From the IMG/VR virus record IMGVR_UViG_3300032829_000014, positions 1-53,848 of that record: a stretch of 53,848 nucleotides of DNA; one strand, 5' to 3'. Shown here one piece after another: positions 5,843 to 30,757 of this stretch. Positions within the stretch are counted from its first letter, which is position 1. Each line of letters begins with the position of its first letter. The notes below the pieces were generated by a model. It searched no databases, was not told the DNA's origin, and saw only the letters and a program-made list of their open reading frames with translations. Origin of the DNA: a virus. Both the position numbers and the translations under genes were made by a program.

Positions 5843-6404
5843 ATTCTTTTAAAGATTTAATAATAAAAAATTCTTTTTTTATAAAATATATTGCTTTTTT
5901 TTCAGTTATTTTTCTTGTATAATTTAAAAAATATTTTTTAAATAAATCAATGATAAATTTATTATTAATTTCATTATTAATTTCAATTAATATTGTTTCA
6001 TTATGTTTTTTTACATATAAATTTAATAATTTATAGATTTTATTAATAATATTTATTTTTTCTTTTTCAGATAATTCATATTCGTTTTCTATTTTAAATC
6101 CTATTTGTAAATTTTCAGCAAGTATTCTTTTTTTATGTAATAGATTTAAATTTAATTTAAATTTATCATATTCAATATTAGGAATTTTATAATTTAAATA
6201 TAAAAAACAATAAAAATTTGATTCCATAAATTTTATTTCACTTCCCCAAACATAATTATTTTTATAAATATCTTCAATATATTCTAAATATATATTATCA
6301 TTTAATAAAATATTATCTAAATTAATATTCAATTTATTAAAATCATTATTATAAACATATTTAAAATAATCCAAATAATTTATTGGTAATGGTCTTATGC
6401 TCAT
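5811..6404 (-). CDS. Hypothetical protein in the baseplate cluster
   Basis: A 197-residue protein of unknown function, rich in Asn, Ile, Leu and Lys, and mostly helical. It begins MSIRPLPINYLDYFKYVY. It is placed between baseplate genes with tight spacing, so a structural or assembly role is plausible, but no family signature is visible. Confidence 0.7.
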   Translation of the reverse strand: MSIRPLPINYLDYFKYVYNNDFNKLNINLDNILLNDNIYLEYIEDIYKNNYVWGSEIKFMESNFYCFLYLNYKIPNIEYDKFKLNLNLLHKKRILAENLQIGFKIENEYELSEKEKINIINKIYKLLNLYVKKHNETILIEINNEINNKFIIDLFKKYFLNYTRKITEKKAIYFIKKEFFIIKSLKEYARLYNINSN

Positions 6405-12693: not shown

Positions 12694-14022
12694 TTATTTA
12701 ATATTTTCATTTGTTCTTCGTGTTCTAAAATTAATAGTTCTGTAAAATTTTTTATTAATTACATTTTTTTCTTGCTTCTTCCTATCACTACTTTTTAGGG
12801 ATATTTCTATCTTGTCATCCATAGTTGGATAGTCCACAAGCTTAAATTCAGGCGAACTCAACCTTATTTTATTATTTAATTTATTTTCTTTAATATTTAA
12901 TATTCTTTTTCCTTCATTTAATATATTAACTGCTGCATTAATATCTCTATCATGAATAGTATTACAATTAGGACAAGTCCATGTTCTATCATTCAATTCA
13001 ATATCATTATTTTTATAATTACAACAATTACATAATTTACTTGATGGATAAAATTTATTTATTTCAATTATTTGTCTACCATACCAATTAGCCTTATATA
13101 TCAATTTTCTTTTAAATTCATACAATGATAACTCTTGTATTGATTTTGCTAATTTATGATTCTTTAACATATTACTTATACTTAAATCTTCCATTACTAT
13201 AACTTGATTTTCGTTTAGTAATTTATTTGTTACTTGATGTAAATAATTTTCTTTTTTATTATTTAATTTTTCATATGCTTTTGCTAATTTAATTCTTGCT
13301 TTATTTTTATTTTTACTTCCTTTAACTTTTCTACTTAATTGTTTATGTAATCTCTTTAATTTCTTTTCATTATTTTTTTTAATTTTAATGTTTTCAAATT
13401 TATTACCATTACTATCAATAATAAAATCTTTAATACCTAAATCAATACCAATAATATCATTTATTGATTTTGGTAATATTTTAGTTATTTCTTTATCAAT
13501 TAATATACTTAAAAAATATTTATTACTTTTTGTTTTTGTTAATGTTGCTGATTTAATATTTTTTCTATTTTTATTTAAATATTTTTCATCTTTTATTGAA
13601 CATTTAAAATGAATATTTTTTAATTTTTTAATTAATGTTATTCTATTACCTTTAAAAGCTTTTTTGCTTATTCCATTATAAGGAAATCTACAACTTTGTT
13701 TATTATCTTTTTTTGATTTAAATTTAGGAAATCCTGTTTTTTTAATAAAAAAATTATAATAAGCACTATTTAAATCTATTAATGATTGAGCAATAACTTT
13801 TGAGTGCATTTCATTTAACCAAGAATATTCTTCTTTTTGTTTTAAATTTGTTAAATATTTACCAAGTTCACCCCAAGAAACAGAATATTTATTTTTATTA
13901 TATTCTTCAATTTTATATGCTAAAAGATTATTATAAATAAATCTACATGAACCAAGTAATTTATTAATATAAATTATTTGATCAATATTAGGATAAATTC
14001 TTATTTTAATAGCTTTTAACAT
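12694..14022 (-). CDS. tnpB: TnpB RNA-guided nuclease, no TnpA partner
   Basis: A 442-residue TnpB, the transposon-encoded RNA-guided DNA nuclease ancestral to Cas12. The RuvC-like active site is complete: D194 in IIGIDLG, E278 in VIVMEDL, and D360 in HDRDINAA. A zinc ribbon (CNCC near 331-334 and CPNC at 350-353) sits between the second and third catalytic residues. The C-terminal tail (YPTMDD, then SLKSSDRKKQEKN) is like that of other TnpBs whose 3' end overlaps the guide RNA. No transposase is adjacent. The start codon overlaps the end of the upstream gene by 17 bases, and the downstream gene begins 22 bases later, so it sits inside a phage operon. It may be a TnpB-only element or a fixed, host-used copy. 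Confidence 0.9.
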   Translation of the reverse strand: MLKAIKIRIYPNIDQIIYINKLLGSCRFIYNNLLAYKIEEYNKNKYSVSWGELGKYLTNLKQKEEYSWLNEMHSKVIAQSLIDLNSAYYNFFIKKTGFPKFKSKKDNKQSCRFPYNGISKKAFKGNRITLIKKLKNIHFKCSIKDEKYLNKNRKNIKSATLTKTKSNKYFLSILIDKEITKILPKSINDIIGIDLGIKDFIIDSNGNKFENIKIKKNNEKKLKRLHKQLSRKVKGSKNKNKARIKLAKAYEKLNNKKENYLHQVTNKLLNENQVIVMEDLSISNMLKNHKLAKSIQELSLYEFKRKLIYKANWYGRQIIEINKFYPSSKLCNCCNYKNNDIELNDRTWTCPNCNTIHDRDINAAVNILNEGKRILNIKENKLNNKIRLSSPEFKLVDYPTMDDKIEISLKSSDRKKQEKNVINKKFYRTINFRTRRTNENIK

Positions 14023-26884: not shown

Positions 26885-27637
26885 ATGATAATAAATCAAG
26901 GCTATAATCATATTGAAATTTGTAAGCAAGCATTAATAGATGAAAATTTGTTTAATACTTTTAAAAGTAATAATAAGTATAGAATAATTTTAGAACATGT
27001 TGGATATGAAACAGGTTTAGAATATTTAAATAAAATTAAATCAAATAAAGATTACTCAATAATTGAAAAATGTTGGACTAAATTTTTAGAAAATGATGTT
27101 ATTGGTACTCCAATAAAATTTAAATATAATTTAAGTGATAATTTAATAAATACTAATGTTTCTCCAACTACATTAAGATATATTTCTATTGGATTAGATA
27201 TTATAAAATATATTCAAGAAAAAAAATTAAATAATATTAATATTTGTGAAATAGGAGGAGGATATGGTGGCCAAAGTAAGATATTATTTGATTTATGTAA
27301 TATTTTTAATATTAATATAATTAAATATAAAATTATTGATATTCCTGAAGTTAGTAAATTTCAAGAAAAATATTTAACAAAATTAAATATAAAAAATGTA
27401 ACTTTTGAATCTTGTTTAAGTATAAATATCGAAGAACATGATTTATTAATTTCAAATTATGCATTAGGTGAATTTAATAATGAAACTCAAGAAGAATATA
27501 TTGAAAAAGTTGTTAAATATTGTAAATATTATTATATGATATGGAATAATCATGGTATAAATGAATATTTTAAAGATGCAATAATATTACCAGAAATACC
27601 TGAAACAGCAGAATTTAATAAAGTAATATGTAAATAA
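26885..27637 (+). CDS. Putative sugar O-methyltransferase
   Basis: A 250-residue class I SAM methyltransferase. INICEIGGGYGGQSKILFDL at about residues 119-138 is the SAM-binding glycine loop, and KYKIIDIPEVSKFQEKYL gives the acidic residue after strand 2. HDLLISNYALGEFN is the strand-4 motif. The layout fits the 'putative sugar O-methyltransferase' family found in polysaccharide loci. It sits with glycosyltransferases and would cap a glycan. Confidence 0.7.
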   Translation: MIINQGYNHIEICKQALIDENLFNTFKSNNKYRIILEHVGYETGLEYLNKIKSNKDYSIIEKCWTKFLENDVIGTPIKFKYNLSDNLINTNVSPTTLRYISIGLDIIKYIQEKKLNNINICEIGGGYGGQSKILFDLCNIFNINIIKYKIIDIPEVSKFQEKYLTKLNIKNVTFESCLSINIEEHDLLISNYALGEFNNETQEEYIEKVVKYCKYYYMIWNNHGINEYFKDAIILPEIPETAEFNKVICK

Positions 27638-27652
27638 TATATATATAAAATT

Positions 27653-27790
27653 ATGAATAAAAATACTAATAAAGTAGATAATCTTAAGAATTCATTATCT
27701 ATTGAAGAAATTAAAAAATTAATTTATCAATTTAAGGAAGAAGAATTACCATATGCAGATGCACCTTTTCATTTTCAAGCTGAAATTTGG
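27653..27790 (+). pseudogene. 5' part of a small gene interrupted by the IS607-type element
   Basis: 46 codons starting MNKNTNKVDNLKNSLSIEE and ending HFQAEIW, where the TGG codon supplies the GG at which the element sits. In the present sequence translation runs 5 codons into the element and stops. Joining codon 46 directly to the ATA at 29687 restores a 68-codon frame that ends at 29755. The function of the original small protein is unknown. Confidence 0.65.
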
Positions 27791-27845
27791 TCTATAAATT
27801 ATTTTTAATAAAAAATAGAAAATTATATCTTTTAATGAAAATTTT

Positions 27846-27860
27846 ACTATTTATAATAAA
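27846..27860 (+). promoter_or_regulatory. ACTATTTATAATAAA motif before tnpA
   Basis: This is the same motif proposed as a phage late promoter (compare 1066 and 15262), here 9 bases before the tnpA start and inside the element. Either the element uses the phage's late promoter type, or the motif is a more general AT-rich start signal. Its presence inside a transposon is a caution for the late-promoter reading. Confidence 0.3.
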
Positions 27861-27869
27861 TATTATTTT

Positions 27870-28439
27870 ATGCAAAATTATATAAAATTATCGGAATATG
27901 CAAGAAAAAAATCAATAACTTATAAAACAGCATGGAATCATTTTAAAAAAGGAATGATTGATGGTGCTTTTTTAGATAATACTAATCATGTGTTAATACC
28001 TATTAACAATAATTTAAATAATAATTGTATTATATATGCCAGAGTATCATCAAATGATAGAAAACAATCATTAATTGATCAACAAAAAAGATTGGAAGAA
28101 TTTGCAAATTTAAAAGGTTATAATATTGTTGGTTCATATAAAGAAATTGCTTCTGGTATGAATGATAAAAGAATTATTTTAAATAAAATATTAAATAATG
28201 ATGATTGGAATATACTTATTATTGAAAATAAAGATAGATTAACCAGATTTGGGTTTAATTATATTAAAACTTTATTAAATAAACAAAATAAAGAAATCAT
28301 TATACTTAATACTATAGATAATGATAAACAAGATTTAATGAAAGATTTAATATCAATATTCTATTCCTTTTCTGCCAGAATGTATGGCCTAAGAAGAAAA
28401 AAAAATAAACAAGATATAATTAAATTTATTGAAAATTAA
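27870..28439 (+). CDS. tnpA: IS607 TnpA, serine recombinase
   Basis: A 189-residue transposase of the IS607 type. Residues 1-45 are a MerR-like DNA-binding helix-turn-helix (YIKLSEYARKKSITYKTAWN). Residues 53-189 are a small resolvase domain with the catalytic serine in IIYARVSSNDRKQS (S60), then LIDQQKRLEEFANLKGYN, SGMNDKR and IIENKDRLTRFG with the active-site arginines. It cuts and rejoins the element at GG. It is followed 9 bases later by tnpB. Confidence 0.92.
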   Translation: MQNYIKLSEYARKKSITYKTAWNHFKKGMIDGAFLDNTNHVLIPINNNLNNNCIIYARVSSNDRKQSLIDQQKRLEEFANLKGYNIVGSYKEIASGMNDKRIILNKILNNDDWNILIIENKDRLTRFGFNYIKTLLNKQNKEIIILNTIDNDKQDLMKDLISIFYSFSARMYGLRRKKNKQDIIKFIEN

Positions 28440-28448
28440 AAATAATTA

Positions 28449-29690
28449 TTGCAATTAGTTGAACAACATATTATAAAATCTAATAATCCTTTCTTTAAAG
28501 AATGTGATAATATTTGTTTTAAATCAAAAAATTTATATAATTCTTGTTTATATAATATCAGACAAGAATATATAAATAATAAAATAAATATTATTAATAA
28601 TTTATATCATATAATGAAAAATACTGATGAATATAAATCATTGCCAAGAAAAGTATCATCATCAGTATTATTAATGGTTCAAAAAAATTTTAAATCATTT
28701 TTTAATTCATTAAAAGAATATAATAAAAACTTAAATAAATTTAAAAATAGACCACATTTACCAAAATATTTGGATAAAATTGATGGAAGATATATGGTTT
28801 CATATACCAATCAAGCAATATCTAAAAAAATATTTAAAAAAGTTAATAAAATTAAATTATCACAATCTAATATTGAATTTAAAACAAAAATTAATGATTT
28901 TAATATTATAGATTGTATAAGAATAGTACCTAAAATAGGTTATTATGTTATTGAAATTGTTTATACTATTAAAGAAAAAGGATTATTAAATGATAATAAT
29001 CAATATTTAAGTATTGATATAGGATTAAATAATTTAGCTACATTAACAAGTAATAAAATTAATTTTGACCCAATAATTATAAATGGTAAGCCATTAAAAA
29101 ATATAAATCAATATTATAATAAAAAAAGATCAGATTTACAATCAATATTAAAAATTAGAAATAATAAAAATAATTCAAATAAATTAAATTTATTAACATT
29201 AAAAAGAAAAAATAAGATAGATAATTATTTACATAAAGCAAGTAAAAATATAATTAATATATGTAATGAAAATAATATAAATACGATAATAATAGGTAAA
29301 AATGATAATTGGAAACAAGATATAAATATAGGTAAAACAAATAATCAGAATTTTGTAAATATACCACATAGTAGATTTATAGAGATAATAAAGTATAAAT
29401 GCGAAATAAGTGGTATAAAATTTATAACTATAGAAGAAAGTTATACAAGTAAAGCAAGTTTTTTAGATTTAGATAAGATACCAAATTATAGTAAAAATAA
29501 TAAAACTAATTATAATTTTAATGGTAAAAGAATATCAAGAGGGTTATATAAAACTAATAAAGGTATAATTATAAATGCTGATGTAAATGGTAGTTATAAC
29601 ATATTAAGAAAAGCAATTCCAAAAGTATTTTCCAATGGGGTAGAGGGTGTTAGAGTACATCCAAAAATCATAAAAATTTTAAAGGGATAA
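28449..29690 (+). CDS. tnpB: IS607-associated TnpB nuclease
   Basis: A 413-residue TnpB with a TTG start, supported because the family begins MQLVEQHIIK. RuvC residues: D190 in YLSIDIGLNN and D378 in INADVNGSYNI. At the usual second site the sequence is IIIGKNDNWKQ without Glu. A Glu pair at 329-330 (ITIEESYTSKASFLD) lies further on, a rearranged arrangement I recall for IS607-linked TnpBs. No CxxC zinc ribbon is present. The end (FSNGVEGVRVHPK) is typical of this branch. It probably uses a guide RNA from its own 3' end. Confidence 0.88.
   Translation: MQLVEQHIIKSNNPFFKECDNICFKSKNLYNSCLYNIRQEYINNKINIINNLYHIMKNTDEYKSLPRKVSSSVLLMVQKNFKSFFNSLKEYNKNLNKFKNRPHLPKYLDKIDGRYMVSYTNQAISKKIFKKVNKIKLSQSNIEFKTKINDFNIIDCIRIVPKIGYYVIEIVYTIKEKGLLNDNNQYLSIDIGLNNLATLTSNKINFDPIIINGKPLKNINQYYNKKRSDLQSILKIRNNKNNSNKLNLLTLKRKNKIDNYLHKASKNIINICNENNINTIIIGKNDNWKQDINIGKTNNQNFVNIPHSRFIEIIKYKCEISGIKFITIEESYTSKASFLDLDKIPNYSKNNKTNYNFNGKRISRGLYKTNKGIIINADVNGSYNILRKAIPKVFSNGVEGVRVHPKIIKILKG
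29590..29686 (+). ncRNA. Probable guide (omega) RNA region at the 3' end of the IS607 element
   Basis: TnpB guide RNAs normally overlap the last part of tnpB and reach the right end of the element, with the guide read from flanking DNA. The extent here is inferred from that rule and from the right end fixed at 29686; I did not resolve a fold. The GC-richer stretch CAATGGGGTAGAGGGTG near 29633 would be its core. The guide would begin at 29687. Confidence 0.35.
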
Positions 29691-29755
29691 TATTATATAT
29701 TATTTCATACTCTGGAATGGAAGAATTTATTCAATGGTTAGAAACTAAAAAATAA
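29687..29755 (+). pseudogene. 3' part of the small gene interrupted by the IS607 element
   Basis: Reading from 29687 in the frame set by the excised junction gives IILYIISYSGMEEFIQWLE and then TKK-stop. Together with 27653-27790 it would form a 68-residue protein. This fragment has no usable start codon near its beginning. Confidence 0.6.
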
Positions 29756-29849
29756 TAAAATGAGTACAAATAATTGGGATGATAAAATTTTTGGAGGATT
29801 AAGTAAAAATTAAATAAGAAAAATATCAAAAGGTTTGTTTTATGATTAT

Positions 29850-30137
29850 ATGATTTTTGCTACTTTGACAGATTGTGAAAATATTGATGATGAAAATTCA
29901 ATATTAATTATTGAATTAGCAAACGCCAATATTAACAAATTAAATAAAATAATGGGTGAAATTTATGCCGAAAAATTATCTTCAGAATCTAAAACACATA
30001 AATTTATATTTAATAGTTACAAAACAGATAAAAATATTGTTGATTTACATGAATATGAATCATCAAAAATATCTATTGGAACATATACTGAAATAACAGA
30101 TGTTTATATTGTTTTAGATGTAAAAAAAATAATATAA
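29850..30137 (+). CDS. Hypothetical protein
   Basis: About 95 residues from the ATG at 29850 (MIFATLTDCENIDD); a TTG at 29835 is the other possible start. It is an acidic alpha/beta protein with no recognised family. It is the first intact gene after the IS607 insertion. Confidence 0.6.
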   Translation: MIFATLTDCENIDDENSILIIELANANINKLNKIMGEIYAEKLSSESKTHKFIFNSYKTDKNIVDLHEYESSKISIGTYTEITDVYIVLDVKKII

Positions 30138-30166
30138 AATTTAAAAACTTTAATAAAATTTATAAT

Positions 30167-30757
30167 ATGAGTTCTCAATCACAAGTAGGCCAAGATTTAT
30201 GGGCTTTAGAAGTATTAAAAAATAAAAAAAATGGATTTTTTATTGATATTGGAGCACATAATGGAGTATTTTTTAGTAATACATATATGTTTGAAAAAGA
30301 ATACGAATGGAATGGGTTAGCTATTGAAGCTGATCCTGTTTTATTTGAATCATTAAAGAAAAATAGAAATTGTATATGTATTAATAAAGCAATTACAAAT
30401 TATAATGGTAAATGTAAATTTGATGGTAAAATTTGTAATTCAAATAGTAGTATTGAAGTTGATGGAATAACATTAAGTGAATTGTTTAAGCAATATAATG
30501 TTCCTAAAGTTATTGATTATATATCTTTAGATATTGAAGGTGGAGAATATAATGCATTATTAGGTTTTCCATTTAATGAATATAAATTTTTAACATTAAC
30601 TGTTGAACATAATATATATAATGGAGATAAACAAAATTTAATAAATAAAGAAAAAATATTTGATTTATTAACAAATAATAATTATTTTCGTATAAAAAAT
30701 AATGTTGCTGATAATGGTAATGAATTTGAAGATTGGTATATTTTAAAAAATATATAA
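30167..30757 (+). CDS. FkbM-family methyltransferase
   Basis: A 196-residue SAM methyltransferase of the FkbM type. SQVGQDLWALEVLKNKKNG and FFIDIGAHNGVFFSNTYMFE (SAM loop) open the domain. AIEADPVLFESLKKNRNCI, then DYISLDIEGGEYNALLGF, which carries the conserved D-EG-E, complete it. FkbM enzymes O-methylate sugars and related hydroxyl groups. A second, distinct FkbM enzyme is encoded at 40503. Confidence 0.88.
   Translation: MSSQSQVGQDLWALEVLKNKKNGFFIDIGAHNGVFFSNTYMFEKEYEWNGLAIEADPVLFESLKKNRNCICINKAITNYNGKCKFDGKICNSNSSIEVDGITLSELFKQYNVPKVIDYISLDIEGGEYNALLGFPFNEYKFLTLTVEHNIYNGDKQNLINKEKIFDLLTNNNYFRIKNNVADNGNEFEDWYILKNI

Follow-up and report, generated by a model that had tools for sequence, protein, structure and literature searches.

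A probable autonomous IS607-family element with TCT ends inside a small open reading frame of a large phage

We analyzed a 53,848-base virus record, IMGVR_UViG_3300032829_000014 (the whole stretch is called the window below), which comes from a large AT-rich tailed phage whose contractile-tail sheath gene has relatives in many phage contigs, some of them longer than 300 kb. After the tail genes, positions 23758-53737 are taken up by a long run of small genes, among them glycosyltransferase-like and FkbM methyltransferase ones. At 27653-29755, a small open reading frame (ORF) is interrupted by the tnpA and tnpB genes of an IS607 element. Neither of the two genes that flank the element had a match in 22 related phage records, so these phages do not share a conserved accessory block with the window. 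The features of the locus are as follows.

27653-27793, + strand: 5' part of the split small ORF, 47 codons including the shared TCT, open from the ATG at 27653
27790-27793, + strand: left junction GT-CT, the constant flank GT followed by the crossover dinucleotide CT (from twin copies and locus scan)
27794-29713, + strand: IS607-family element, 1920 bp (from shared tail, twin copies and locus scan)
27870-28439, + strand: tnpA, serine transposase, 189 aa (NF033518; Pfam Resolvase)
28449-29690, + strand: tnpB, predicted RNA-guided nuclease, 413 aa, TTG start (NF040570)
29645-29662, + strand: guide-RNA hairpin GGGTGT-TAGAGT-ACATCC with loop AGAGT at 29652-29656 (consensus hairpin)
29684-29706, + strand: A/T-rich right-end hairpin GGGATAATATTATATATTATTTC (fold of -5.7 kcal/mol when taken alone, z -2.3)
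29709-29713, + strand: right end ACT-CT, where the guide-RNA scaffold ends; modelled as pairing with AGAGT 29652-29656
29714-29755, + strand: 3' part of the split ORF (GMEEFIQWLETKK, stop), in the joined 60-codon frame

A first-pass annotation, made from the sequence alone, had already placed an IS607-type element within a small ORF, and both proteins bear this out by scoring above their family cut-offs: TnpA reached 147 bits against NF033518 (transpos_IS607; cut-off 110, residues 9-180) and TnpB 166 bits against NF040570 (cut-off 100). tnpB lies directly downstream of tnpA on the same strand, and both frames are open and retain the residues that are invariant among relatives, namely Y56, R58, V59 and S60 together with D122, R123 and R126 of TnpA (across 15 relatives), and D190, E330 and D378 of TnpB (in six relatives). 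The last three were assigned to the RuvC triad by comparison with PMC10711439; the glutamate occupies the alternative position (EESYTSKA), six residues before the zinc-ribbon position, and the usual place (IGKNDNWKQ) has none. A DIG motif is present, and the zinc-ribbon cysteines are lost. We firmly assign the element to the IS607 family.

Several related genes were seen in passing. TnpBs that are 64-67% identical to that of the window occur, without tnpA, in other large phages (L009:3990-5209, L010:3990-5248 and L101:2490-3764), and the TTG of tnpB at 28449, ten bases past the tnpA stop, stands where these three have ATG; this could be a genuine alternative start, or else a mutation reducing TnpB. 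Immediately ahead of the start codon, L009, L010, L011 and L101 carry a short palindrome like GTCTATAAGAC, and L101 still ends in ATACTCT. Beside a TnpB of the 340-kb phage L009, regular repeats with spacers at 5970-6400 (GTTGTAATTCCC-like translation LVFILIREGITT) look like a CRISPR array. The window itself carries a second TnpB-like gene on the - strand (12694-14022, 442 aa), in which the zinc ribbon looks intact and the RuvC glutamate is the usual one (VMEDLS); no adjoining transposase gene was seen.

The ends of the element were placed by comparison. Loci with related TnpB or TnpA were gathered, and similar copies in different surroundings were paired. In nine such twin-copy pairs, the right end was ACT plus a dinucleotide and the left end GT plus the same dinucleotide: AT in eight of them (L300/L310, L285/L289, L288/L291, L298/L328, L286/L294, L142/L149, L129/L134 and L263/L264) and GT in one (L261/L262). 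Three further pairs showed such ends less plainly where the alignments stopped. Across all loci, a matching GT-NN and ACT-NN pair was found in 41 of 51, compared with a mean of 18 and a maximum of 27 in 200 rounds with shuffled flanks; the remaining 10 had no matching pair. The sequences thus compared indicate a clade rule of GT plus core on the left and ACT plus core on the right, with AT, GT or CT and seldom GG as core. The window has exactly one matching pair, GT-CT at 27790-27793 and ACT-CT at 29709-29713.

The right end can also be read from its tail. The window, L113 and L112 agree at all 17 positions of 29697-29713 (ATATTATTTCATACTCT), beyond which their DNA is unrelated; since the same stretch recurs at right ends in other DNA, the tail is element sequence. 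In all three, the element continues with an A/T hairpin followed by ...TTATTTCATACT-CT; L117 has ...TTATTTCAAACT-GT, similar tails occur in other relatives, and hairpins after the tnpB stop were also recognized there by eye. On the left, L113, L112, L200 and L182 likewise have GTCT followed by A/T-rich DNA. A right end at the GG of 29714-29715, which would give a 56-codon join, was considered and discarded, since the conserved tail stops at ACT-CT. What the two ends of the window share is CT, within TCT, at 27792-27793 and 29712-29713, with no longer duplication, as in other IS607 elements. On either side, a T precedes the core; the joined sequence therefore does not depend on where within TCT the exchange falls, and the bounds may equally be written 27791-29710 or 27792-29711. 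The GG crossover of the type elements is found neither in the window (CT) nor in the twin-copy relatives (AT, GT); we treat GG as typical of IS607 rather than defining.

In the present sequence, the left piece of the ORF runs to a stop at 27808 that is supplied by the element. Joined by the rule, the left part (ending ...FHFQAEIW) and the 14-codon right-hand part give MNKNTNKVDNLKNSLSIEEIKKLIYQFKEEELPYADAPFHFQAEIW-SG-MEEFIQWLETKK, a frame of 60 codons ending at 29755. The earlier expectation that removal of the element yields a continuous frame thus stands, with the joined ORF open and both element genes intact; the insertion had also been called recent, with which intact tnpA, tnpB and joined frame are compatible, and to which they assign no date. 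If the rule holds, joining the flanks of relatives should restore real genes. The nearest element found (L182, IMGVR_UViG_3300037424_001372; 1924 bp, TnpA 72% identical) resembles that of the window in its left end GGTCT and in its insertion point between codons for Trp and Ser, and differs in its right end, ACTCA, and in its host gene: its joined flanks form a complete dCMP deaminase (...LADLEVAQW-SKDKSTKVGAVIV...), the junction of which is gap-free against PDB 7fh4 and 2w4l. Its cores differ, with CT on the left (3418) and CA on the right (5342), so either the match is imperfect, in which case two-base cores need not agree exactly in every element, or the exchange dinucleotide is TC, shifted leftward by one base. 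In a bacterial relative (L313), the joined flanks form an 84-residue YggU that aligns with PDB 1n91 with zero gaps and matches Pfam DUF167 (E 1.3e-23). In L288, joining at the twin-copy ends leaves the frame unrestored.

On these grounds, we read the locus as an apparently intact, autonomous IS607 element of 1920 bp with TCT ends, situated in a small phage gene of which excision would rejoin 60 codons, and we put the probability of this at about 0.82. The same ends could also lie in non-coding DNA, with the 60-codon ORF no gene at all and its open join a matter of chance, but we regard this as unlikely. An open frame is by itself weak evidence, because random joins of the left part within the window stayed open for at least 12 further codons in 43% of cases. 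Moreover, no intact homologue was found with the 68-aa and 60-aa joins in the viral contigs queried, in 44 related records (best E 0.015, judged unrelated on reading), in phage and plasmid records, or by a PF11728 search of 46 records; a degenerate W-S-G-M-E-E-F pattern gave six matches, none with similar upstream sequence. Against a non-coding site, the ORF starts 15 bases past the previous gene and its joined stop is followed closely by the next ATG, a spacing of the kind seen in packed phage genomes. In addition, when seven join variants were compared with Pfam, only that of 60 codons gave a match (ArAE_1_C, E 0.0018), covering residues 15-60 ungapped to the last position of the model; as this is below the curated cut-off, it is a weak hint in favor of the 60-codon join. 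We infer a genuine gene of 60 codons here.

The right end of the element also appears to be tied to its guide RNA. Toward the 3' end of tnpB, the relatives share a consensus guide-RNA hairpin, three pairs of which show changes on both sides. The loop that it carries in the window, AGAGT (29652-29656), is exactly complementary to ACTCT (29709-29713), the right end. Loop and right end in relatives are GTAGT/ACTAT, GCAGT/ACTGT, GGAGT/ACTCT and CCAGT/ACTGG, the general loop being NNAGT. A pseudoknot between the apical loop and guide-adjacent bases is known (PMC10711439, PMC10097598), and the scaffold of ISXfa1 includes a base of the right flank (PMC10711439). A script found pairing at the first core base in 28 of 32 loci; shuffled pairings gave 17.8, and not one of 5000 shuffles reached 28. 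The shuffles took no account of relatedness, and the four misses are script errors (a wrong right end in L184, L190 and L200, a wrong loop in L142). In a tree of TnpA, those elements that have a CT core and carry both genes, including that of the window, group as a single clade (99/97). The first core base has changed two or more times, a count that used loop and core assignments corrected by hand after the loops had been seen, excluded L142 and so is not independent of the pairing. Comparison of L190 with its neighbour L187 adds one further double change, at the second core base. All changes run in the direction of pairing (in L191 through wobble pairs); about three independent ones are visible, too few for a sign test. 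In the IS607 and TnpB literature consulted for comparison, we found no clade described whose core and loop vary in concert. On balance, we lean slightly toward the view that this widespread IS607 clade left GG, with each change of core matched by a compensating change in the pseudoknot loop, and that GT plus core serves as the TAM. If so, both enzymes of a single element would be co-evolving by way of one shared pair of bases.

The reading of an autonomous element in a small gene implies the following course of events. The element would have entered the gene at TGG-TCT-GGA, with TnpA exchanging strands over a dinucleotide common to element and target, here CT beside the left-flank GT. For its excision, TnpA would cut at the shared dinucleotide and the element would move as a circle, as has been proposed for the IS607 family (PMC4058570). 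One TCT would remain, the 60-codon gene would be rejoined, and the expected empty site would read TTTGGTCTGGAATGG. The guide-RNA scaffold of TnpB would end in ACT plus core, followed by a guide taken from the right flank (GGAATGGAAG...), a role attributed to this flank by analogy with published TnpB systems; the predicted guide is the first 20 or so bases of 29714-29755. Because the rejoined gene would present GTCT, the putative TAM, followed by the right flank, TnpB would be expected to cut it and thereby favor the return of the element. Such cutting of the empty site in favor of return is the published model for TnpB-carrying elements.

Other accounts of the locus fare less well. The element might no longer be a transposon, its TnpB and RNA now serving the phage in regulation or defence, as TldR does; the lost zinc-ribbon cysteines would suit such a change, as would the several close TnpB relatives in large phages without tnpA. 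However, tnpA is intact here with its invariant catalytic residues, the ends match, and D190, E330 and D378 are all present, which makes this domestication very unlikely.

A crossover at GG, with an element of 27791-29686 and a restored gene of 68 codons, is what the first-pass annotation had proposed, and we now give it almost no credence. Its observations hold: TTTGG (27786-27790) and, at the very start of the right-end hairpin, GGG (29684-29686) are there, the join to 29755 is open for 68 codons, and GG is the published IS607 dinucleotide (PMC6188088). Nonetheless, these are not the ends of the element, which reaches 29713 with the tail shared by L113 and L112 elsewhere; GG ends would give the gene 17 bases identical to element right ends in other DNA, would cut away the pairing partner of the guide-RNA loop, and are seen in no twin-copy relative, the clade using GT plus core and ACT plus core. 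The two joins are 24 bases apart, and the eight extra codons of the longer one are element sequence; since 24 is a multiple of three and the tail is open, the 68-codon frame had looked restored. Nor were GG preference and restored frame two independent pointers, given the different ends used by this clade and the frequency of open joins by chance. The uninterrupted 68-residue protein, proposed as a search query, was absent from the collections searched. Equally implausible is an IStron, in which a group I intron would remove the element from the mRNA and leave the gene not really broken: although group B IStrons with IS607 genes are known from phages (PMC4227781), an Rfam search of 27000-30500 for a group I intron within the element was empty up to E 1, and the left end is only 76 bases from tnpA.

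For the autonomous element in a small gene, exact ends, a target motif and a predicted guide can now be given for an IS607 clade of phages, and GG should not be used blindly for placing IS607 ends. The AT, GT, CT and GG cores with their matching loops constitute a natural series for testing whether, as proposed, the boundary of a guide RNA is adjusted to its transposase.

With regard to known systems, IS607 of Helicobacter pylori, IS1535 and ISC1926 share with the window the order tnpA then tnpB, a length of about 2 kb and A/T-rich ends, as well as a crossover at a short shared dinucleotide with no longer target duplication (PMC6188088, PMC4058570). The departure from described IS607 elements lies in this dinucleotide, which is given as GG (PMC6188088, PMC10711439): published termini and targets of these three are GG, whereas the window has CT and its relatives AT or GT, with a constant GT in the left flank. 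Because a survey found cleavage sites to be generally conserved within clades (PMC9956272), other cores may already be catalogued elsewhere. The TnpB of the window resembles those with a repositioned glutamate and a DPhiG motif in its DIG and in the EESYTSKA glutamate six residues before the zinc-ribbon position; it does not belong to the DPG group of pro-Fanzors, and its zinc-ribbon cysteines are absent. Finally, ISXfa1, with its IS607 TnpB and guide RNA, has the kind of right-end RNA, guide-adjacent pseudoknot and flank base within the scaffold (PMC10711439) that is predicted for the window, but it uses GG and a GGG motif, whereas the putative pseudoknot loop is matched to CT in the window and to AT or GT in its relatives.
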